Positions 3,101 to 14,591 are shown, counted from the first letter of the stretch. The stretch is DNA of 20,009 bases from a virus (IMGVR_UViG_3300034522_000013:1-20009); one strand, 5' to 3'. Notes: generated by a model from the sequence alone, not told the origin. Numbers and translations: made by a program.

Positions 3101-3279
3101 AAGGGCCATTCACTTACCGGGGCCGCTACCCCTTCAATCGCAACAGTAACCGGATGTTCGCGGTTAAATTCCCAGCCCTGCACATTCTGCGAAAACCAGT
3201 CGTGGAGGGTCAGCGTCCCGTGCTCGTGAGTTTCAAGCGGTTCGCCCGGCAGGCGTGAGGGATAAATTTTGATGGTCAC
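187..3279 (-). CDS. TipJ-type central tail tip / host-specificity protein (lambda J-like role)
   Basis: A 1,030-residue protein at the end of the tail-tip gene run, the position and size class of lambda J (about 1,130 residues). The N-terminus (MTIKIYPSRLPGEPLETH) and an Ala/Val-rich hydrophobic segment near residues 82-103 match what I know of the TipJ family. This segment may help the tip engage the membrane during DNA entry. Residues about 330-480 are a Gly/Ala/Thr-rich insert, and the remainder resembles the baseplate-hub-like core of J proteins. The start is GTG; its bases overlap the TGA stop of the upstream peptidase gene (GTGA), so translation is probably coupled. No lambda I-like gene lies between the peptidase and this gene. 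Its role in binding the host is inferred from position; a separate fibre gene follows and may share it. Confidence 0.85.
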   Translation of the reverse strand: MTIKIYPSRLPGEPLETHEHGTLTLHDWFSQNVQGWEFNREHPVTVAIEGVAAPVSEWPLLVITPESDVRMYPVPYGSGAEIALWVAVSVAVASAAYSLYMMSTMQTGGASQPGNGDQLELNPAKANTAKLGDPIREVLGRYKVWPDYVVQPISRFDSNDPKKFSTSMFLCVGVGDMTIPASSVRIGSTPVSAFGDDVSYAIYSPGANVSGDSRSENWFNNGEVGNTTSGTSGLDLGSTGPQTVSITADAVLVSANTITLIEASASDDETEIPASWAVGTIVTVIAPNSYNVANTGGYSVIFGDVDELAPVVGMPVAVNFNESDYDLFIASYAPGVPAVPGVGGSAASVTASAAPTTYDFSSSPATFTIGWDGTTYAVSLITNYVTMSGLVNTVTNQLTGSGLIARDNSGRLQIVEETSPFAGGSISHSVLPVAAFGSAPVDVVGVASSGGTAAVEAHITLAYNSATGKPFTGIPNGVQRIAIGYAAGQFRITDIDDQTITVERVRVTQDTEGNDVITVDSTWQGFTERTLLDAQITGVNDDYAWLGPFLACPDGETTTTIENNFIFPNGHVQYNSKGDPKSHNVHVLVQYRDATTAGTWKTVAYDFRNKTADGHGYTRRIGGLPAAQYEVRARRTTKIGGARTVNNVYWQALRSRLSKRPARYAGVTTMAISVRTGNRLAAQSDRRISVVPTRIYNGGRTARSISGALYHVLESLGFTDGQIDSNAIDALEATYWTPRGETFDFATGDSASALEMLQKITYAGMGYFLLTDGLVSAGREGIKPWVGMLTPQETTEELQTSFKAPNQDDYDGVDVTYINGTTWAEETVQCRLPGNLTPMKIESYTLDGVLDQDRAYRIGMRRLLGYTLQRLQHTTSTEMDALCYEFMDRIVLADDIPGGQTLSCLITDMKYDSSTITLTLSEPPDWSFESPRVIIRNQEGGASSMQAPTRIDDYTLSIPYNAALNVESWIMDDPAIEPLRLLFCSSIRVPYDALIGEISPGSDGGCGVTAVQYHPGKYAYDDASYPGDVA

Positions 3280-3656
3280 TGGTAGTACTCCACTTTCACG
3301 AACCGGCGCTCAAAGCGCGCCAGCGGCAGAAATGTCACGTTAGTACGCGGGTTGCATTCAGCGGCATGCAGCACGCCGCCAATCTCCACCACGACAGCGA
3401 CGTGTGTGACCAGGGAACCGGAATAACACGCAATCCCGGCGCCCACGACTGGCTGGCAACGGGTCAACCCCGTCATCAGGCCGCGCGCTTCCCTGTCCAG
3501 TCCATTATCGTCTTTGGTCACGCCGACGAATTCAGGCCACGGTGCCAGCCCAAGGTCACGCCGGATTTCGTTTACGATGCCGAAGCAGTCAAGCTGCGGG
3601 TGTGCTCGCCCGCCCTTCAGCCATTTAACCGAAAGGTATTTATCAGGATCGAACAT
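3276..3656 (-). CDS. NlpC/P60-type tail tip peptidase (lambda K C-domain-like)
   Basis: A 126-residue protein with the layout of phage tail-tip NlpC/P60 cysteine peptidases. The likely catalytic Cys is C24 in LDCFGIV, the His is H85 in THVAVVVE, and a third polar residue is probably H97 in VLHAAEC. These enzymes are thought to cut peptidoglycan peptides locally at injection or to act in tip assembly. Lambda K has an additional JAMM-type metalloprotease domain before this one; here the protein contains only the NlpC part. The ATG is preceded by AGGG about seven bases upstream. Its stop overlaps the GTG start of the TipJ-type gene. The same gene in related prophages is sometimes labelled 'nitrite transporter', which nothing in the sequence supports. 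Confidence 0.83.
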   Translation of the reverse strand: MFDPDKYLSVKWLKGGRAHPQLDCFGIVNEIRRDLGLAPWPEFVGVTKDDNGLDREARGLMTGLTRCQPVVGAGIACYSGSLVTHVAVVVEIGGVLHAAECNPRTNVTFLPLARFERRFVKVEYYQ

Positions 3657-4616: not shown

Positions 4617-7600
4617 TTACTCCTTTCTGGTCCTGCCGTAATAGCCATTCAGGGCGCGGCCAAACTCATTAGTTGGCCTAACCACCTGAGCTGTCAGCTC
4701 TTTTCGTATTGAAACCACAAGCTGGCGATTGCGGCTATCTATCGCCGCCATGGTCACATCATCAGGCTTACCAGTGAATGAGTTCTGAATGTGGATCTGC
4801 CCACCAGCCGCGTCCTGGCGAACGGCTTGCACCCTCTCCAGGGTGGCGTCCAGCTTTGCCGACGTACTGGCGGTAACCACTCGCTCTCCCTTTTGTAGTA
4901 GCCAGGTGCCAGTTTCCGGCACTCTGTCGATACCATCGTGCGCCATCCCGGCGAGTGACTGACCGGCTATCAACGCCACTGATGCATAACCAACGGCGCG
5001 GATTGCTGTCGCCGCAGGGATCCCCATAATGAGCCCACCTTCCGCCATAGCCTTGGTTGCTGCAAGTTCAGTGTTGATCACTGCCTGCGCCATTGCTGCC
5101 GCCTTACTGGCAATAAATAGTGTCTTATAGGCAAGACTACCTTCCTGTCCGATACCCTGCAGCAGCTGCGCCGACTGCCCTGCAAGATCAGAGAACATGG
5201 CCAGGCTGGCAGATGTATATCCCGCCTGGATATCCTCTAATTGCGAAGCATTCGTCTTGTTGATTTCAGCAACACGATCCGCATAGGTTTGCTCGTTAAT
5301 CTCCTTCTGATCGAGCAACTCCTTCTGCATTTCAAGCTGTGTTTCGTACCACTTTTCCAGTTCTTTTTGCGCATCAGCGACTCGAACAAGTTCACCGCTG
5401 GCACCGCCGACGGATGAATCGATACCGCCAAATTTCGGGGCGTCCTGAACCGAAGCTTTCGATATGCGCTCCATCGTTTCGCGATATTCTTCAGTCGCAG
5501 GTGCCGCTTCGCGTAACAATTTAATGCGCTCGCGAGTGGTCTTTAGAAGCGCCTCCTCGGGCTTCAGCAGTTCTTGATTCAGGGATTTAAGGCGTTCGAC
5601 AGCATTAAGATGATCAAGCGCGGCGGAGTTGCGCAGAAGCTCTGTCTTCTGAGTTTCAGACAAAGCCCCCAGTTCACCCTGGGTTACCTGATATTTGGTT
5701 TTAGCGAGCTCCGTACTCTGGCCAGCAAGCGCAAGCTGTTCCTGCTGCTGGCTAATGAGGCGCTTGTAAGACTCCTCAAGTTTTTCCGATGTCTTTTGCT
5801 CATCAGATTTGGGCATCTTTTTCTGAGGTTTGTTGGCTTCATTATTTCGCCATTCCAGCAGACCGTTATTAATCAACTCCTGACGGCCTGTCTGGAATTG
5901 TGGGTCACTGGTTAATCCCAGATCGTCGGCGGCATAACTGAGCCGTAAGCGCTCCTTTTCTTCACCCTTAAGGCGTGATAACTCCAAATCCCTACGGCTC
6001 TTTTCAAGTGCATCGGTTTGCTTTTTATCGAGATCGGCCTGAGGCAGCCTTAGCGGAACGTTAGCCAGCCCCTGACGGGCCATGAGAAGTTGGTTGCCTA
6101 AACCGAGAATTTTATTAAATTCAGTATGCTGACCATTCATCATGATCAGCGACTGATAAACTGCATTCTGACGCCAGGCTTGTTCGCGTATTAAATCGTT
6201 ACGACGCCGCTCTATTTCTTCGAGGGTCTGCTGAATGCCGCGAGACTTATCTCGCATGTCATTTAATTTTCCCTCTTCAACGGCAAGCTGATCCGTAACT
6301 ATCGCTACGGCTCTCAGGATATTTGCATCGTTTTCGCTGGTTATGCCGGGCTTTCCGCGAGATGCATTCAGACCGTCGATTTGAATTTTCAGCTCACCAA
6401 CCTTTTTGGCTTGCTCACCAACTAGGCGATTTTGTTCTACCAGGGCACCAACAGTTCTTCCTCTGTTGTCGTCTGTTTCAGACAAAGACATGCGAGAAGT
6501 CTTTTCTCTGATTTCATCAATTTGACTGGCATATTCCTGTGCAGATCGACGGGCTTGCTCCTGATTTTGATACATCGCATACCAGGCACCAGCTCCAAGC
6601 ATCACCAAGCCAGGCACGCCGCCAATGAGTCCAAGAGCACCGCTTAAAAGGCGGGTACCCACAGATGTCACACTATTGAGATTGCTTTGGGTGGTGACAC
6701 GATTTGCAAGATTCCGGTCTCTGGCTGCCTCGGCTGCAGCCAGGCGCCTTTCAGCAACAGCCTGAGCATCAGCGTTTTTAGCTGCCACCAGACCCGCCTG
6801 CGCACGTTCAAGAGCTGTTCTGGCTCTGACTTTTTCTGTGGCAGTTCCACTTGCAAGTGCGGTGGTCAGCCTGGTCTGAGTTGCAGTGACTTTTGCTTCT
6901 GCTGCAGCGACTTTCTCTTGTTGAGCAGCCAGAATGTCTGCACTGCGGGAACGCTGAACAGCTTGTTGAGCCCGATAAACTTCAGCTCGTGAGGCGGCAA
7001 CAGCAGACTGAGCCGCTTTATCCTGTGCAACTGCAAGAGCAACTTCTGATTTGGCAGCAGAAATCAGTGCGCCTGTTGCACTCGTAACACTCGTTACGAC
7101 TCCACTGAGATATCTTGCCAGCCCAATTCCAACAAGCGCACCGGCAGCAGTTGTGATCGTGGACATATTGTCAGCAACATCACTCAAAGCACTGCTTACC
7201 GCTGAGGAGGTAAAAGAGTCTAGCGTTTGCGCGACGCTATCTAATCCGCCAGACAGCGCATCTGTCGCACCAGTGGCCTGGTTGACACCGCCAACCCAGG
7301 CCATGAATGAGTTGGTAACTTTTTGCAGTGAACCTGAAACTGTTTGCGGCATGTTGGCAAATTCACCCTGCAATGAGCCCAGCTGGCTCATAAGTGCAGG
7401 AACAACCTTATCAATAGTTAGTTGCCCCTGATCAGCCATGCTCTTCAGGTCTTTGCGAGCCACTCCCATTCCTGCGGCAAGTGCGCGTATCACGCGATCG
7501 CCTGCTTCGTTAACGGCGTTAAATTCCTCTCCTCGAAGAACGCCTTGCGCCAGCGCCTGGCTGAATTGTGTGATTACAGAACTTGCTTCTTGGGTGTTTG

Positions 7601-8137: not shown

Positions 8138-8437
8138 TTAACTTTCCGGGTTATCTAAAAACTCTCTCAGGGCTTGCGACTTATTGCAGGATTCTTTATT
8201 AATCGACATGCCCATCTCTTTTTGTTTCTTACAGAAATAGAAGTAGTCATCGTTTGTTTTTATGTAACCCATGAATTTATAAAACGCTTTACTACAAAGC
8301 TCAGGGTTAGCATGTTCAGCACAAACCGTAGAAGTATAACTCTGCAGTTCGCTTGATTCTAATGGCGCTAATGTTTGAGTCGCGTTTGATATAGGGATAA
8401 GACAAAAACATAATATAAATAGAACTAATTTTTTCAT
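8138..8437 (-). CDS. Small exported cysteine-containing protein; moron in the HK97 gene 15 slot
   Basis: A 99-residue protein with a clear signal peptide: MKK, a hydrophobic core to about residue 18, and a likely cut after SNA (residue 19). The predicted mature part is about 80 residues with four cysteines (C39, C48, C69, C84), enough for two disulfides in the periplasm. There is no lipobox. Uncleaved membrane anchoring is also possible. It is inserted between the tail chaperone and tape measure genes, is AT-rich relative to its neighbours, and ends at an intrinsic terminator, all typical of a moron. HK97 carries its superinfection-exclusion gene 15 at this position, so a role in blocking DNA entry of related phages is a reasonable guess. 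I do not recognise the family. The ATG at 8435-8437 has only a weak ribosome site. Confidence 0.72.
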   Translation of the reverse strand: MKKLVLFILCFCLIPISNATQTLAPLESSELQSYTSTVCAEHANPELCSKAFYKFMGYIKTNDDYFYFCKKQKEMGMSINKESCNKSQALREFLDNPES

Positions 8438-8448
8438 TTGCTTTACCA

Positions 8449-8478
8449 ATTATAAAAAAAGCGATCCTATTCTTTTAA
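8449..8478 (-). promoter_or_regulatory. Possible promoter for exported moron gene
   Basis: On the minus strand TTAAAA (8473-8478) and a perfect TATAAT (8449-8454) are 18 bases apart. Transcription would begin only about five bases before the ATG, leaving an almost leaderless message. The TATAAT also lies in an A/T run where such matches arise by chance. Confidence 0.3.
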
Positions 8479-8775: not shown

Positions 8776-9162
8776 TTACGCCGGGGGTTGCGACTTTTCC
8801 CGCGCTTCTTCCGCGTTATTAATGAGGTCCAGCGCCTGTTTCAGCAGACGGGAATGAACGGGGCCGTAAATTTCACGCACCTGCTCATCTTCATCGACGC
8901 TGAATACCGGTTGCTTATCGGTGTCGCACAGGACGTCAATGAAGAGAACCACGTCAGCGCAAAGATTACGGTGGGCCTTTTCAGATACCGACACATTTTC
9001 ATCGTCAGCACCGACTTTCACTACTTCCTGCCAGCGCAGCCAGGCTTCGCCAGACGGCTCACGAAGAACAACTTCGACGCCTTCCCACTCAGGAACCGCC
9101 ACCGTCTTATGACGAAAGCCTGACATCTTCGCCATGGCTAATTTTTTCAGATTTTGCGACAT
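8776..9162 (-). CDS. Tail assembly chaperone, G-like
   Basis: A 128-residue protein rich in acidic residues toward its C-terminus, placed between the tail tube gene and the tape measure, as lambda G. It is expected to coat the tape measure protein and keep it soluble while tube subunits polymerise around it. Residues about 20-60 (VPEWEGVEVVLREPSGEAWLRW) resemble the conserved start of this family. The last codons (EEAREKSQPPA) overlap the frame that leads into the T-like domain. The ATG at 9160-9162 has no adjacent Shine-Dalgarno. A GGAG lies on the far side of an 8-bp hairpin, 9 bases from the start once the hairpin is folded, which may set the low expression level expected of a chaperone. 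Confidence 0.8.
   Translation of the reverse strand: MSQNLKKLAMAKMSGFRHKTVAVPEWEGVEVVLREPSGEAWLRWQEVVKVGADDENVSVSEKAHRNLCADVVLFIDVLCDTDKQPVFSVDEDEQVREIYGPVHSRLLKQALDLINNAEEAREKSQPPA
8794..8802 (-). other. Candidate -1 frameshift site in tail chaperone genes
   Basis: The minus strand reads CGGGAAAAG with zero-frame codons CGG GAA AAG. A tRNA-Lys on AAG can slip back one base onto AAA, entering the T frame. This is an A-AAG type slip and not the canonical GGGAAAG heptamer of lambda. A 7-bp stem (8741-8758, GCGCTCC / GGGGCGC) lies about 35 bases downstream, farther than usual stimulators. The zero frame ends at TAA 8776-8778, so the shift must occur before that point. Confidence 0.5.
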
Positions 9163-9171
9163 CTGTTATGC

Positions 9172-9191
9172 ATGCCGGGCCAACCCGGCAT
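9172..9191 (-). promoter_or_regulatory. Hairpin splitting the ribosome site of the G-like chaperone gene
   Basis: On the minus strand ATGCCGGG / CCCGGCAT form a perfect 8-bp stem with a TTGG loop. GGAG directly precedes the stem, and exactly nine bases separate its 3' foot from the ATG of the G-like gene. No T-run follows, so it is not a normal terminator. Folding would bring the GGAG to an ideal distance from the start. It could also protect the 3' end of the tube mRNA. Confidence 0.7.
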
Positions 9192-9196
9192 CTCCA

Positions 9197-9901
9197 TTAA
9201 TTGACGGTAAGGGTACAAGTTGATGATGTAATTGTCTTAACCGGGGCAGAAGAATCAGTGACCACGCAGGTGTAATCTCCCGCATCACCCGAAACAGCGC
9301 TGGATTTATTGAATGTGTCAGATGTTTGCCCACTGATGGTGACACCACCTTCCTTCCAGGCATAGCTGTAGGGAAGTTTACCGCCAGCGGCGGCGACCGC
9401 CATACTGATCGGCGCCCCTACCGCTACAGATTGTGCGGCGGGCAAATCAGTGGTCAGTTTAAGTGCCGGGTCAATCGGTACCGGCTTCCCTTTCAGACGC
9501 AGGGAGAACGTTGCCGCCACTACGCCGTTAGTACCGGAAGACCAGGTGTGCTGACGAACTTCGGCAAGGAACTTAAAGCCATTGCCAGACGGGAAGATGA
9601 TCTGGAAGCCATAAGCCGTGTCGTTGTCATACGCATCACGCAACGCATCCTGCGCAGCATTACGGTAAAAATTCCCTGACAGTGAAATCTCCGAAGGGGC
9701 CGGGAGACCATTAACGTTCTCCTGCTCAGTGGAGCATAGCGTGGTGACGTCAATATCCTGTTTTTGCCCGCCGGTGAACTGCGCTTCTTTGAGAGTGCAG
9801 CTCAGATCCAGATAGACGGCGGTTTCCATTGCGTCTCTGGTCGTTGGCAGTGACGAAATAAGGATTTTCGTCAGCTGCGATTTTTCGTAATTCGAGGACA
9901 T
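9197..9901 (-). CDS. Major tail tube protein with C-terminal Ig-like domain
   Basis: A 234-residue protein in the position of lambda V: after the tail terminator gene and before the chaperones. Residues 1-140 form the tube domain that stacks as hexamer rings. Residues about 148-234 look like an Ig-like fold, with W182 (SYAWKEGG) and the classic D-A-G-D-Y-T-C segment at 206-212. The usual first Ig cysteine is absent (ISMAVAAAG), so the domain would lack the standard disulfide. Such domains decorate the outside of tails and are thought to bind carbohydrates weakly. The ATG at 9899-9901 has GGAG six bases upstream, directly after an intrinsic terminator. A strong hairpin follows the stop. Confidence 0.88.
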   Translation of the reverse strand: MSSNYEKSQLTKILISSLPTTRDAMETAVYLDLSCTLKEAQFTGGQKQDIDVTTLCSTEQENVNGLPAPSEISLSGNFYRNAAQDALRDAYDNDTAYGFQIIFPSGNGFKFLAEVRQHTWSSGTNGVVAATFSLRLKGKPVPIDPALKLTTDLPAAQSVAVGAPISMAVAAAGGKLPYSYAWKEGGVTISGQTSDTFNKSSAVSGDAGDYTCVVTDSSAPVKTITSSTCTLTVN

Positions 9902-9917
9902 AGTGATCTCCGGATAT

Positions 9918-9939
9918 AAAAAAGCCGCCTCTCGGCGGT
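9918..9939 (-). terminator. Rho-independent terminator before tail tube gene
   Basis: On the minus strand a 5-bp GC-only stem (CCGCC / GGCGG) with a GAGA loop is followed by C and six T residues. It sits in the 62-base gap between the tail terminator gene and the ribosome site of the tube gene. Confidence 0.75.
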
Positions 9940-9963
9940 CAGGATGGTTATTTGAGTAAGGAG

Positions 9964-10311
9964 TTACTGGATGATGTGAACTTCAAGCGTTGCGCGGCGC
10001 AGCCCTGTTTCTGACTCGTATCCACCCGTTTTGCTCATCCGTGTAAAGCCCAGCGGCATCAGCGCAGCAATTACCTGGTCGCGAAGAGAACGTGCGTCAT
10101 CAACAGAAAATGCGTAAACGTCGACCTGCAGTGCAGTATCTTCCTCCGCAGGACCACAGAACGTGTCGGCACTGATCTGGTTCACAAATGTGAAGGTGAC
10201 CCACGGCGGTGCGACTGCCGGGGCTCCTTCACTGTTAAGCGGCACCACGCCGGGATAAACCTGACCGTCGGCAAGTTCGCGAAGCAGCCCATAGATATCA
10301 GATTCGTTCAT
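9964..10311 (-). CDS. Tail terminator / tail completion protein (DUF3168-like, lambda U role)
   Basis: A 115-residue protein (MNESDIYGLLRELADGQVYPGVVPL ... LEVHIIQ). The pattern of an N-terminal helix, a 'VYP..VP' segment, a central strand pair with a D/Y-containing 'LQVDVYAFS', and a C-terminal strand pair is that of the DUF3168/gpU-like tail terminator family. It is expected to cap the finished tail tube and join it to the head. Its ATG overlaps the stop of the preceding gene (ATGA), indicating coupling to the gp10-family gene. The family is assigned from pattern and position; no residue is diagnostic on its own. Confidence 0.75.
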   Translation of the reverse strand: MNESDIYGLLRELADGQVYPGVVPLNSEGAPAVAPPWVTFTFVNQISADTFCGPAEEDTALQVDVYAFSVDDARSLRDQVIAALMPLGFTRMSKTGGYESETGLRRATLEVHIIQ

Positions 10312-10754
10312 TTTGAAAGCACCCTGTCGATTGCCGCATTTGCTTCAGAGAATGCAGCGGCAACCGCGTCCTCCTGCCTGGCATCGTAGGCAGGGCGAAT
10401 GAACGGCACGGGAGCCATGGTTGATGTCCCCAGCTCAACAAAACGCCAGTAAAAGGCATTGCGTGGATCGCTGGTTTTCATCGTGTTATCGCTCGTGCCG
10501 GTATCAGGGTTTGTTCCCCGAACGTGCACGCCGGATGAAATGTTTCCGTTGCGATCGCGCTGCGTCATCACAACGATGTTTTTCTTCAGTTTCCCGGTTT
10601 TCTCGGGAGCGCGGCTGACGGCTTCATCTTTAAAAATGTTCGCCGCCGCACGCGTGGCATCGCGCATGACCTTGCGGTTTTCAGCTTTGCTCAGCGTCGC
10701 CAGGTCTTCCGACAAATCGAGCAGGCCAGAACAATCAAGGCTGGTACCTATCAT
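10308..10754 (-). CDS. HK97 gp10-family head-tail / tail completion protein
   Basis: A 148-residue protein with the features of the HK97-gp10 family: an N-terminal helical part (LDLSEDLATLSKAENRKVMRDATRAAANIF), then EAVSRAPEKTGKLKKNI, and a later WRFVELGTSTMAPVPFIRPA segment typical of the family. It acts at the head-tail interface or the tail's proximal end. I chose ATG 10752-10754 because AGGGGG lies seven bases upstream and the ATG overlaps the preceding stop (ATGA). An in-frame upstream start would add 14 residues inside the preceding gene. Confidence 0.85.
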   Translation of the reverse strand: MIGTSLDCSGLLDLSEDLATLSKAENRKVMRDATRAAANIFKDEAVSRAPEKTGKLKKNIVVMTQRDRNGNISSGVHVRGTNPDTGTSDNTMKTSDPRNAFYWRFVELGTSTMAPVPFIRPAYDARQEDAVAAAFSEANAAIDRVLSK

Positions 10755-11092
10755 GGTTTTACCCCCTGTTTGCAGAGTATTTCCAGCCGGGTGCATTTTG
10801 CATCCGGTATAGGTGTTCCGCTTACTTCCAGCGTCTGGCCTTTGAATGGCCCGTTTAACACAACCAGACGTGATGCAGCCGTTACATCAGTCCGGTACCG
10901 CATCCAGACGCGTATTGTCGCTTCCGCCTTTTCAGCGCCTGAAGCTACCAATTCACGACCGCTTATCGCTTTTGTTTCAGCAGGAACGCTGACAGCGGCG
11001 TCATACCATTCAGCTTTGGGTTGCCCGGAAGGAGAACGAGTTGTTCGGGAGTTTTGCACCGTCACGCGGTGGCGAAAGCGTCCGGGTTCCAT
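10751..11092 (-). CDS. Head closure / head-tail adaptor protein (phage head-tail joining family)
   Basis: A 113-residue protein starting MEPGRFRHRVTVQ and containing WYDAAVSVPAETKAISGREL and IRVWMRYRTDV, a pattern I associate with the phage head-tail joining family (SPP1 gp16-like / lambda FII role). It would bind below the connector ring and stop DNA from leaking out. TGA of the preceding gene and this ATG share a base (TGATG), with GGAGG seven bases before the start. The gene order (connector, closure, gp10-type, terminator) matches many HK97-type phages. Confidence 0.82.
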   Translation of the reverse strand: MEPGRFRHRVTVQNSRTTRSPSGQPKAEWYDAAVSVPAETKAISGRELVASGAEKAEATIRVWMRYRTDVTAASRLVVLNGPFKGQTLEVSGTPIPDAKCTRLEILCKQGVKP

Positions 11093-11424
11093 CAGCTGCC
11101 CTCCACCAGAACATCATCAGTTTTCCCACGCCAGTTACGGTGAATGAACATCATCCGCTCAGCTGCAGCGTTTGAATAAAGCTGTAATTCACTCTGCGCG
11201 GTGCGGTGTTCAAACATATCGGCGAAGCACAACAGAACAGCCCCCTTTATGGCCGCAGGAATATCAGGTGCAACCTTCCATGCGGGTTCATCACACCAGC
11301 GTAAGCAGTAATCAAAAGCTGCCTGAGCATAAAGGGCGATCAGCTCATCCCGATCATCATCCTCAAACTCAATATGCTGCTTGAGTAATTTGAGACTCAG
11401 TACATCAAGAACATTTATCGCCAT
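11092..11424 (-). CDS. Head-tail connector protein (HK97 gp6-like)
   Basis: A 110-residue, largely helical protein directly after the capsid gene. The segments VLSLKLLKQHIEFEDDDRDELI and ALYAQAAFDYCLRW follow the pattern of the gp6-like connector family, which forms a ring on the portal as the first adaptor. Its ATG (11422-11424) has no adjacent Shine-Dalgarno. GGAGGA lies 27 bases upstream beyond a very stable 7-bp hairpin, which if folded puts it nine bases from the start. The stop overlaps the next gene's ATG by one base. Confidence 0.82.
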   Translation of the reverse strand: MAINVLDVLSLKLLKQHIEFEDDDRDELIALYAQAAFDYCLRWCDEPAWKVAPDIPAAIKGAVLLCFADMFEHRTAQSELQLYSNAAAERMMFIHRNWRGKTDDVLVEGS

Positions 11425-11433
11425 GCGTTATAA

Positions 11434-11451
11434 GGGCGGGTTTCCCCGCCC
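11434..11451 (-). promoter_or_regulatory. Hairpin splitting the ribosome site of the connector gene
   Basis: On the minus strand GGGCGGG / CCCGCCC form a 7-bp all-GC stem closed by a GAAA tetraloop. GGAGGA touches its 5' foot just after the capsid stop, and nine bases separate the 3' foot from the connector ATG. The sequence after the stem (TTATAACGC) is not a terminator T-run. Confidence 0.72.
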
Positions 11452-11458
11452 TCCTCCA

Positions 11459-12619
11459 TCAGCTACCCGCTGCGGCAAAGGTACCTTTAATGATTGCTGT
11501 CGGACGATAATGCGCCAGCGCCAGACGTTCTTCACACAAAATGGTCAGCATGTTTTTCACGAAGTTATCGCGGTCTTCGCGGCTTACTTCCACGGTTGCA
11601 TCCATGCGATCCCAGACCTGAGACGCCATGTCGAAACCGCCGACCGTGAAGGTGCCGGCTGCCTGCGCCTTAGTCGGGACGACCGGCAGGCCCCACATGA
11701 TGTTGCTGGTGAATGCCTGTGGGCCACCGAAGAGATAACGGCCTTCGTTGTCCTTCAGCAGCGCGATGTTGTGCCAGTCGCGCGGGTTCAGGACGATGCC
11801 GGAGGCGCTGAACTCGGACTCTGTCACCTGGTAAATAGCGTGAGCGATGATGTCTGCCCGGGTATCGCCAGTGACATTCAGCGCAGTGTCGTAGGCGGTT
11901 GCCACTTTGTTCAGGCCTTCCAGATTGTCCCCGCTACCGTCACCGTTCAGCAACTGGCCCTCTTCCTTCAGCGCCAGACCGTACATGAGTCGGTTGTTGA
12001 CGTAGGACTGCAACATTGGCGCGTCGTCCATAACCTGACGGGATGCCTGCACCCAGTGTGCGATGGTCTTCACGTTCGCCGTTTGCTTGCTGAAGGTGAT
12101 ATCCGATTCAGGTTTCAGCGCTTTCTCTGCCACTACATCGGCGTTATTGGTAAACACCTCTTCACGCACGTATTCCAGAGAATTGCTGGAAATGCGGCCC
12201 TGCGCCAGCAGGTCACGAATGGTCAGGCGGCGCAAGCCAGGCATGATAATGCCAGGCACCTGCATCGGCTGGATCAGGCTGCCCGCTGAACCTGCATCAC
12301 TGCCGAGTGATTTGTTGAAGGTCTTTGCATCGAAGCTGCCTTTGCTGCCGTTCCAGGACTTTTGCAGCTCTTCAGCTGCACGTTCGGAGAAGGATTTCTT
12401 CTCACCCGGATTTTCCGCACCTGAAGCAAGTTTCTGTTCCAGATCGAAAAGGCGGGTACCGGATTTGCTCAGCTCTTCCTGCACTTTCGCCAGGTCTGAC
12501 TGCAGCTGTTTGGAAACCTGCCCTGTGCTTTCAATTTCTGCCTTCTGCGCATCGAAAAGCTGAGTCATTTTCAGCTGGGACTCTTCGATGGCTTTTTGAA
12601 TTTGAGCGAGTTCAGACAT
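11459..12619 (-). CDS. gp5: Major capsid protein, HK97 gp5-type
   Basis: A 386-residue protein that, compared with HK97 gp5 from memory (385 residues), is almost identical. Residues 1-103 are the delta domain, which serves as the scaffold and is removed by the prohead protease; the cut after K103 (FNK|SLGSDA) is preserved. The cross-link residues K169 and N356 and the catalytic E363 are all present at the HK97 numbers. The mature shell should therefore form covalent protein chainmail. The few visible differences from HK97 cluster in residues 85-111 (SWNGSKGSFD) and at the C-terminus (TFAAAGS). The gene follows the protease gene directly. A stable hairpin lies just beyond its stop. Confidence 0.97.
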   Translation of the reverse strand: MSELAQIQKAIEESQLKMTQLFDAQKAEIESTGQVSKQLQSDLAKVQEELSKSGTRLFDLEQKLASGAENPGEKKSFSERAAEELQKSWNGSKGSFDAKTFNKSLGSDAGSAGSLIQPMQVPGIIMPGLRRLTIRDLLAQGRISSNSLEYVREEVFTNNADVVAEKALKPESDITFSKQTANVKTIAHWVQASRQVMDDAPMLQSYVNNRLMYGLALKEEGQLLNGDGSGDNLEGLNKVATAYDTALNVTGDTRADIIAHAIYQVTESEFSASGIVLNPRDWHNIALLKDNEGRYLFGGPQAFTSNIMWGLPVVPTKAQAAGTFTVGGFDMASQVWDRMDATVEVSREDRDNFVKNMLTILCEERLALAHYRPTAIIKGTFAAAGS

Positions 12620-13316: not shown

Positions 13317-14591
13317 TTAAGCCCCGTCATTGCGGGGTTCTTTGTTAGTTCCTAAATCGGTGATCGGCACGTATTGCGACTGCCGCATTGCCACATCGCC
13401 GCCTGGTAGCGGCGGGAGGTTATCCGTTCGCCGCATCTCGTTGATCGTGCGAAGCCCTGCCTCTCCCATCGCCTTCATGAATGCAGCGCGGGAAGCAGAA
13501 TCACCTCTCAACAGACCATCAAGATTGTGCTCAGCGTGGATGCGGCCAACGTCCTTCGCCGGGATCAGCCATCGCTGGATGCTGTTTTCCCAGCGCGAGA
13601 TATAGGGCTGCAGGGTGTACTGCAGAAAGCCGAGATTCTGCTGCTCGATGCCCGATCCCCAGCTCGTTGACTTCTCAACGTCGCCAACAAGGTGAGGCGG
13701 TACGCCAAAGAATCGGGCCAGTTCGCTGACCTGGAATTTTCGGGACGCCATCATTTCGGCATCCTGAGGTGTCACGCCAATTGCCGAAGTAGAAAAGCCC
13801 GCTTCCAGAATCCAGAGGCGTTTTTTTACCGGGCCGCCGGCGATCTCTTTGAAGTTCTCTTCAACCTGCGAACGCTGCTGCTCGGTTAGGACTTTTTCGC
13901 CGGTAGAGAGGATTTGGGGCGATTTAGCTCCATTCGCAAAGAAATCTCGCTGCTGATCTTCCATCGCCACCGCCACACCCGCCGATTTGCAGGCAAACGC
14001 GATGGGTGAAAGGCCGACCAGCCCGGTAAATCCGAAACCTTTAAGGTGAAAAATTTCTTTCTGTGAAAAGTTGGCGTACTCGCTATCGCGCTGATAGCGA
14101 TAAACCACGTTTTTACCGACCATCTTCACATCCATGTTGGCAGACTGAAGCGGTATCAGGCTAATCACGTCACCCGCGCTGTTACGATCCACCAGTGCAT
14201 AAGCGTTGCCGTAGAAACACAGCTGCATCGTCATGGCTTCCCTGAACTCCTGGGCGGTCATGTACTGATTAGGCGAATAGCGCAGCAGGCGGGCCAGCGG
14301 ATTGCTCAGATCTACTTTTTTTCGGTTATCGTTCTGGTCAGTTTCAAAAACGTCCAGCGGAAGGCACGCAGTGAGTGTCGAAATCAGGCTCACGCAGCGC
14401 CACACCGTCGATATTTGCAGTATCCGTTCATCGTTAATGGATGAATCGCCCAGGTGACCGTGGGCCGACACTGGCCCCGTCTGTGAGCCCTGATTTGGGG
14501 TGACTAAACGCCCGCCGACAAACCAGGACTGCAGCCTTGCCCACCAGCCGTTATTGGTTCGCAGGTCAATCGTGTATTTAGGTTCTTCCAT
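13317..14591 (-). CDS. gp3: Portal protein, HK97 gp3-type
   Basis: A 424-residue protein (MEEPKYTIDLRTNNGWWARL...), the same length as HK97 portal and nearly identical by memory. Twelve copies form the ring at one capsid vertex through which terminase pumps DNA and to which the connector proteins bind. Typical portal features include FREAMTMQLCFYGNAYALV and FQVSELARFFGVPPHLVGD. The ATG at 14589-14591 shares a base with the TGA of the large terminase gene (TGATG), so it is probably translated by re-initiation. A GTG one codon earlier is possible. Confidence 0.96.
   Translation of the reverse strand: MEEPKYTIDLRTNNGWWARLQSWFVGGRLVTPNQGSQTGPVSAHGHLGDSSINDERILQISTVWRCVSLISTLTACLPLDVFETDQNDNRKKVDLSNPLARLLRYSPNQYMTAQEFREAMTMQLCFYGNAYALVDRNSAGDVISLIPLQSANMDVKMVGKNVVYRYQRDSEYANFSQKEIFHLKGFGFTGLVGLSPIAFACKSAGVAVAMEDQQRDFFANGAKSPQILSTGEKVLTEQQRSQVEENFKEIAGGPVKKRLWILEAGFSTSAIGVTPQDAEMMASRKFQVSELARFFGVPPHLVGDVEKSTSWGSGIEQQNLGFLQYTLQPYISRWENSIQRWLIPAKDVGRIHAEHNLDGLLRGDSASRAAFMKAMGEAGLRTINEMRRTDNLPPLPGGDVAMRQSQYVPITDLGTNKEPRNDGA

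Follow-up and report, generated by a model that had tools for sequence, protein, structure and literature searches.

A probable split ribosome-binding site conserved directly after the major capsid gene of HK97-like phages

How would a ribosome start on a gene when a GC-rich hairpin stands between its Shine-Dalgarno (SD) sequence and its start codon? This question is raised twice by the stretch of viral DNA analyzed here (IMGVR_UViG_3300034522_000013:1-20009; the window, 20,009 nt), the minus strand of which carries the late operon of an HK97-like (Hendrixvirinae) phage. The operon runs from terminase, portal, protease, major capsid, head-tail connector gp6 and further neck genes on the head side to the tail tube with an Ig-like domain, tail assembly chaperones, an AT-rich insert gene, and the tape measure. 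The initial annotation had pointed out that both the capsid and the tube genes are followed by an SD, a hairpin, nine bases and an ATG. The features concerned are the following.

11459..12619, minus strand: major capsid gene (HK97 gp5-like), stop TGA at 11461-11459
11452..11457, minus strand: SD GGAGGA of the connector gene, directly 5' of the hairpin
11434..11451, minus strand: 7-bp hairpin GGGCGGG-GAAA-CCCGCCC, with compensatory variation in relatives
11425..11433, minus strand: 9-nt gap TTATAACGC without SD
11092..11424, minus strand: head-tail connector gp6 gene, start matching the N-terminus of HK97 gp6 (3jvo)
9197..9901, minus strand: tail tube gene with C-terminal Ig-like domain (sub-threshold Pfam matches)
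9192..9195, minus strand: SD GGAG of the chaperone gene
9172..9191, minus strand: 8-bp hairpin ATGCCGGG-TTGG-CCCGGCAT
9163..9171, minus strand: 9-nt gap GCATAACAG without SD
8776..9162, minus strand: tail assembly chaperone gene (HK97 gp13-like)

The layout proved exact to the base at both places. After the capsid stop, GGAGGA leads into the GC hairpin (GGGCGGG 11451-11445, loop GAAA 11444-11441, CCCGCCC 11440-11434), which is followed by 9 nt and the ATG at 11424 on the minus strand. The SD duplex energy at this junction is -9.3 upstream of the stem vs. +2.5 downstream, and the hairpin is present in the minimum-free-energy fold of the junction, the folding z of the site being -3.4 (81-nt piece). 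The stem is extendable by A-U and G-U pairs (GAGGGCGGG/CCCGCCCUU), so that it can nibble at the SD. After the tube stop (TAA, 9199-9197), GGAG is followed by ATGCCGGG (9191-9184), TTGG (9183-9180), CCCGGCAT (9179-9172), 9 nt and the ATG at 9162 (minus strand), with a linear SD-to-start distance of 29 nt. The tube hairpin is also found in the minimum-free-energy fold; its z of -1.6 (81-nt piece) makes the tube site alone unremarkable by energy. A known RNA family was ruled out for these hairpins, as Rfam at the gathering threshold gave 0 matches in the whole window.

Post-capsid junctions were taken from phage records, IMG/VR and GTDB genomes and split by capsid identity into two sets. Clade A (C-terminal capsid identity of ~78% or more; Enterobacterales and Pseudomonas) comprises 68 unique junctions from 156 records, and clade B (identity of 61% or less; Burkholderiales, Stenotrophomonas, Rhizobiales, Acetobacteraceae and many IMG/VR contigs) comprises 58 unique junctions. 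The split layout, namely a purine-rich SD, the stem, 5-11 nt and the start, is found in all but one of the 68 distinct clade A junctions, and the exception is truncated. In that prophage (L193, Proteus sp. FME41, ~7164-7220), which is probably recombined or decayed, the junction breaks off right behind the loop, and unrelated sequence follows. The order in clade B is mostly hairpin (usually with a UNCG loop), ordinary SD, start. An SD 4-mer lies 5' of the stem in 57/67 clade A junctions and between stem and start in 0/67; the corresponding clade B counts are 6/58 and 37/58, and the background is 7% in random windows. In 10/67 clade A junctions the SD is only AGG or GGG. Overall, SD pairing is stronger upstream of the stem in 67/68.

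The initial annotation had also argued that the distance is too long when read linearly and normal when folded, and the relatives bear this out at the capsid junction: the linear SD-ATG distance of 25-31 nt (67 clade A junctions) becomes 7-12 nt in 65/67 once the hairpin is excised, with a median of 9 and mostly 8-9 nt. The loop-to-start distance in clade A is 16 nt with an sd of only 0.78, vs. 4.67 for stop-to-loop, and the best hairpin lies 14-18 nt from the start in 19% of shuffled junctions vs. all real ones, allowing for rounding (one is at 13 nt).

Compensatory stem changes, which had been proposed as a check, were found as well. The stem occurs as GGGCGGG/CCCGCCC, GAGCGGG/CCCGCTC, GGGCGGC/GCCGCCC, CGGGGCAG/CTGCCCCG, CGCGGTCA/TGACCGCG, CAGGGCCG/CGGCCCTG and others, nearly all closed by GNRA loops, and at least two Watson-Crick types are present at each of the eight clade A pair positions. 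On loop-centred sequences, 347/352 pair cells (44 distinct cores) are intact vs. ~244 expected when columns or whole arms are re-dealt; choosing the best hairpin in each sequence inflates the paired fraction, a bias to which the position and shuffle tests are less exposed.

Chance hairpins were ruled out by these variants together with a strict layout search on both strands (SD 4-mer, stem of at least 6 bp, 4-nt loop, 6-11 nt, ATG). Applied to the clade A loci (0.505 Mb), it returned 27 matches, of which 22 mark the capsid junction, 2 the tube junction and 3 other places; three full repeats on dinucleotide shuffles returned 4. Over all 3.05 Mb, the plus-strand matches are almost all at capsid and tube junctions, and the minus-strand matches are mostly capsid hairpins read backwards.

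What the comparison of junctions shows, then, is a hairpin maintained as a structure and kept at a constant distance from the start codon, with no SD other than the one 5' of it. From this we infer that the ribosome uses the upstream SD with the hairpin folded. The 30S subunit would bind the SD upstream of the hairpin, accommodate the helix and then reach the AUG, folding having hidden ~20 bases between the two. Such a device has precedents. In T4 genes 38 and 25, linear SD-AUG distances of 22 and 27 nt are reduced by a hairpin to 5 and 11 nt (PMC3014915); the initial annotation was correct in pointing to gene 38, and gene 25 adds a second case. The ribosome was reported to accommodate a long hairpin without unfolding it in the split ribosome-binding site (RBS) of E. 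coli thrS (PMC3936740). The present junctions resemble the T4 sites in that a long linear distance would be shortened, here from 25-31 nt to ~9 nt, but they are unrelated in sequence and genes. Unlike the T4 sites, they are conserved across a capsid clade with compensatory changes, lie directly after the capsid gene and carry GNRA loops. The likeness to thrS would be a hairpin accommodated inside the binding region; thrS is, however, a host gene under autoregulation whose long leader contains several domains, while here a minimal hairpin lies between two phage genes. Judging from the compensatory changes, the constant loop-to-start distance and the SD found 5' but never 3' of the stem, we consider it probable (roughly 0.77) that the capsid junction is a conserved split RBS of the T4 gene 38/25 type whose hairpin descends from a structure bordering the capsid cistron on its 3' side.

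Folding of the isolated RNA often leaves part of the SD base-paired (median of 36% unpaired), and in HK97 the UUUU after the capsid stem can pair with the SD. A partly paired SD would agree with modest output of the downstream gene.

These are the very same hairpins as features already entered in HK97-type records (AF069529, U18319, JQ182727, JQ086374), which label them as terminators or bare stem-loops and give them no role in translation. In HK97 (AF069529) both are recorded as "terminator, putative" (5192-5213 and 7443-7462), the HK97 junctions reading GGAGGGGGCGGG-GAAA-CCCGCCC-TTTTAACGT-ATG after the capsid gene and GGAG-ATGCCGGG-TTGT-CCCGGCAT-GGATAAGCG-ATG after the tube gene; one or the other is a "stem_loop" in U18319, mEpX1 and HK544. 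The hairpins might be weak intrinsic terminators or attenuators that reduce transcription beyond the capsid and tube genes and are read through by an antiterminated late polymerase, their position inside the RBS being incidental. This account, which we regard as unlikely, draws on the annotation of putative or rho-independent terminators at these hairpins in HK97, HK446 and mEpX1, and on the TTTT after the HK97 capsid stem. The GC hairpin of an intrinsic terminator is indeed present at both window sites, but a U-tract directly after the stem is absent from both (TTATAACG, GCATAACA), and neither is among the terminator-like sites found in the window. The earlier statement that neither hairpin has a T-run therefore stands for the window, though not for the HK97 capsid hairpin. 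Clade A shows no conserved T-run (the 8 nt mostly contain 2-4 T; TTATAACG in the window), for which reason a canonical terminator was rejected; GCATAACA or ATAAAATT comes after the tube stem, and true T-run terminators occur elsewhere in the same operon. Moreover, termination would account neither for a start codon at constant distance nor for an SD that is always 5' of the stem.

If the capsid junction is a split RBS, how did it come about? Most clade B relatives have a post-capsid hairpin irrespective of where the SD lies, and in Pseudomonas and KPP5665-2-like phages the next gene encodes a different protein (MKIKALRMFSH...), but the layout is complete from the SD through hairpin and gap to the ATG. 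The clade B hairpin and the non-homologous next gene suggest that the hairpin originally marked the border of the capsid cistron; in clade A the SD would have come to lie on the far side of this inherited hairpin, the RBS growing around it. In a quick, midpoint-rooted capsid tree all genuine split cases fall into one clade (65 rows, SH-aLRT 100), so that a single origin of the split layout would be the simplest account. In this tree, the apparent split sites of two Gluconobacter rows and the labeling of L191 as "ordinary" are artefacts of automatic stem and start picking and were dismissed. Loop type also changes with clade: the distant relatives (e.g., L221, L230, L239, L299, L121) have UNCG and a downstream SD, the HK97 clade has GNRA and its SD upstream.

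The same facts could be taken to mean that the hairpin serves the upstream message only, blocking exonucleases after cleavage, with the downstream start reached through reinitiation by ribosomes that have finished the capsid or tube gene, and the SD-like purines incidental. The post-capsid hairpin is, after all, present in most distant relatives whatever the SD position, and with different downstream genes. We nevertheless find this improbable, because the stop-to-start distance ranges over >20 nt while stem-to-start is fixed, and an SD occurs immediately 5' of the stem far more often than the 7% seen as background. A mini-ORF or reinitiation from an AUG overlapping the stop (TGATGG, TAATGG) was rejected, as this AUG is not conserved (TGATAAGG, TAACCGAGG). 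A protein-binding operator, at which the capsid or connector protein, for example, represses the downstream gene as at the MS2 coat-replicase hairpin, would fit a hairpin placed right after the capsid gene and overlapping the next RBS; the sequence of the stem, the identity of the loop and the gene that follows differ, however, between relatives, and what is kept is a generic GNRA tetraloop helix, which makes an operator highly improbable.

The capsid protein is made in hundreds of copies and the next protein in about a dozen. It is conceivable, if speculative, that the hairpin also protects the 3' ends of capsid mRNA and holds down expression of the low-copy downstream gene. For 3'-end protection the support is indirect, in that distant relatives, and phages with another gene in the next place, still have a post-capsid hairpin. 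That a single hairpin serves two genes, bordering an abundant message at its 3' end and acting as the obligatory spacer of the next RBS, is an attractive but unproven and speculative idea, to which we give somewhat less than an even chance. If true, capsid:connector stoichiometry would be set by one compact, clade-wide element, whichever gene follows.

The tube hairpin appears to be a narrower, optional case. The form ATGCCGGG-TTGK-CCCGGCAT is found in the window, in close relatives of it and in Ig-bearing tubes of the HK97 type, and Klebsiella phages have a second, partly different stem type, CGCCGG-GNRA-CCGGCG. GGAG precedes and 9 nt follow the hairpin in both types, which have the inner GCCGG/CCGGC in common and differ compensatorily in the outer pairs. 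The capsid and tube stems had been called unrelated in sequence; this is too simple, as each is a member of a family of its own, and the Klebsiella tube stem shares the GCCGG core. Tubes without the Ig domain have an ordinary SD and no hairpin, some Ig-bearing tubes (Evi, SW-37) also have none, and another tube type has a true T-run terminator and then a separate RBS. Relatives with both genes but no stem, which had been named as evidence against the proposal, are thus numerous at the tube junction and have an ordinary SD there, so that the device would be optional at this place. No long SD-ATG distance without a hairpin was seen among the junctions inspected.

We found no reporter, probing or transcript-end data for these junctions in the literature, and no published account of the HK97 junctions among open-licence papers. 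The mechanism is already known, and the HK97-clade family appears to be undescribed; on comparative evidence the layout is real and conserved, and it probably makes a new family of a known device. Split RBSs are known from a handful of single genes, and this one would be traceable in a model phage family over dozens of stems that vary compensatorily, re-labeling features entered as terminators in the HK97 record. It would offer a natural test set for RBS predictors and a warning against calling start codons or SDs from linear spacing, and it could easily be tested in HK97.

Several other features of these loci were seen. In Klebsiella phage KPP5665-2 (L169), an unannotated small gene at 3277-3516 (MKIKALRMFSHYHLGTVSQG...), without a Pfam match, lies between the capsid gene and the gp6 homologue, and its homologues fill the same place in Pseudomonas prophages (loci L189-L203). 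T-run hairpins precede the tube gene of the window (9925-9938, minus strand; CCGCC-GAGA-GGCGG-CTTTTTT) and close its portal gene (13322-13337, minus strand; CCCCG...CGGGG-CTTAATTTTT); HK97 has annotated terminators at the equivalent sites, and both resemble true terminators, which the two hairpins after the capsid and tube genes do not. Finally, the AT-rich insert gene (8138-8449, minus strand), between the tail chaperone and tape measure genes, occupies the place of the HK97 moron gene 15. It has no Pfam match, and the N-terminus of its product resembles a signal peptide (MKKLVLFILCFCLIPISNA). It is preceded by a sigma-70-like TTAAAA-18-TATAAT (8478-8449, minus strand) and followed by a GC stem with T8.
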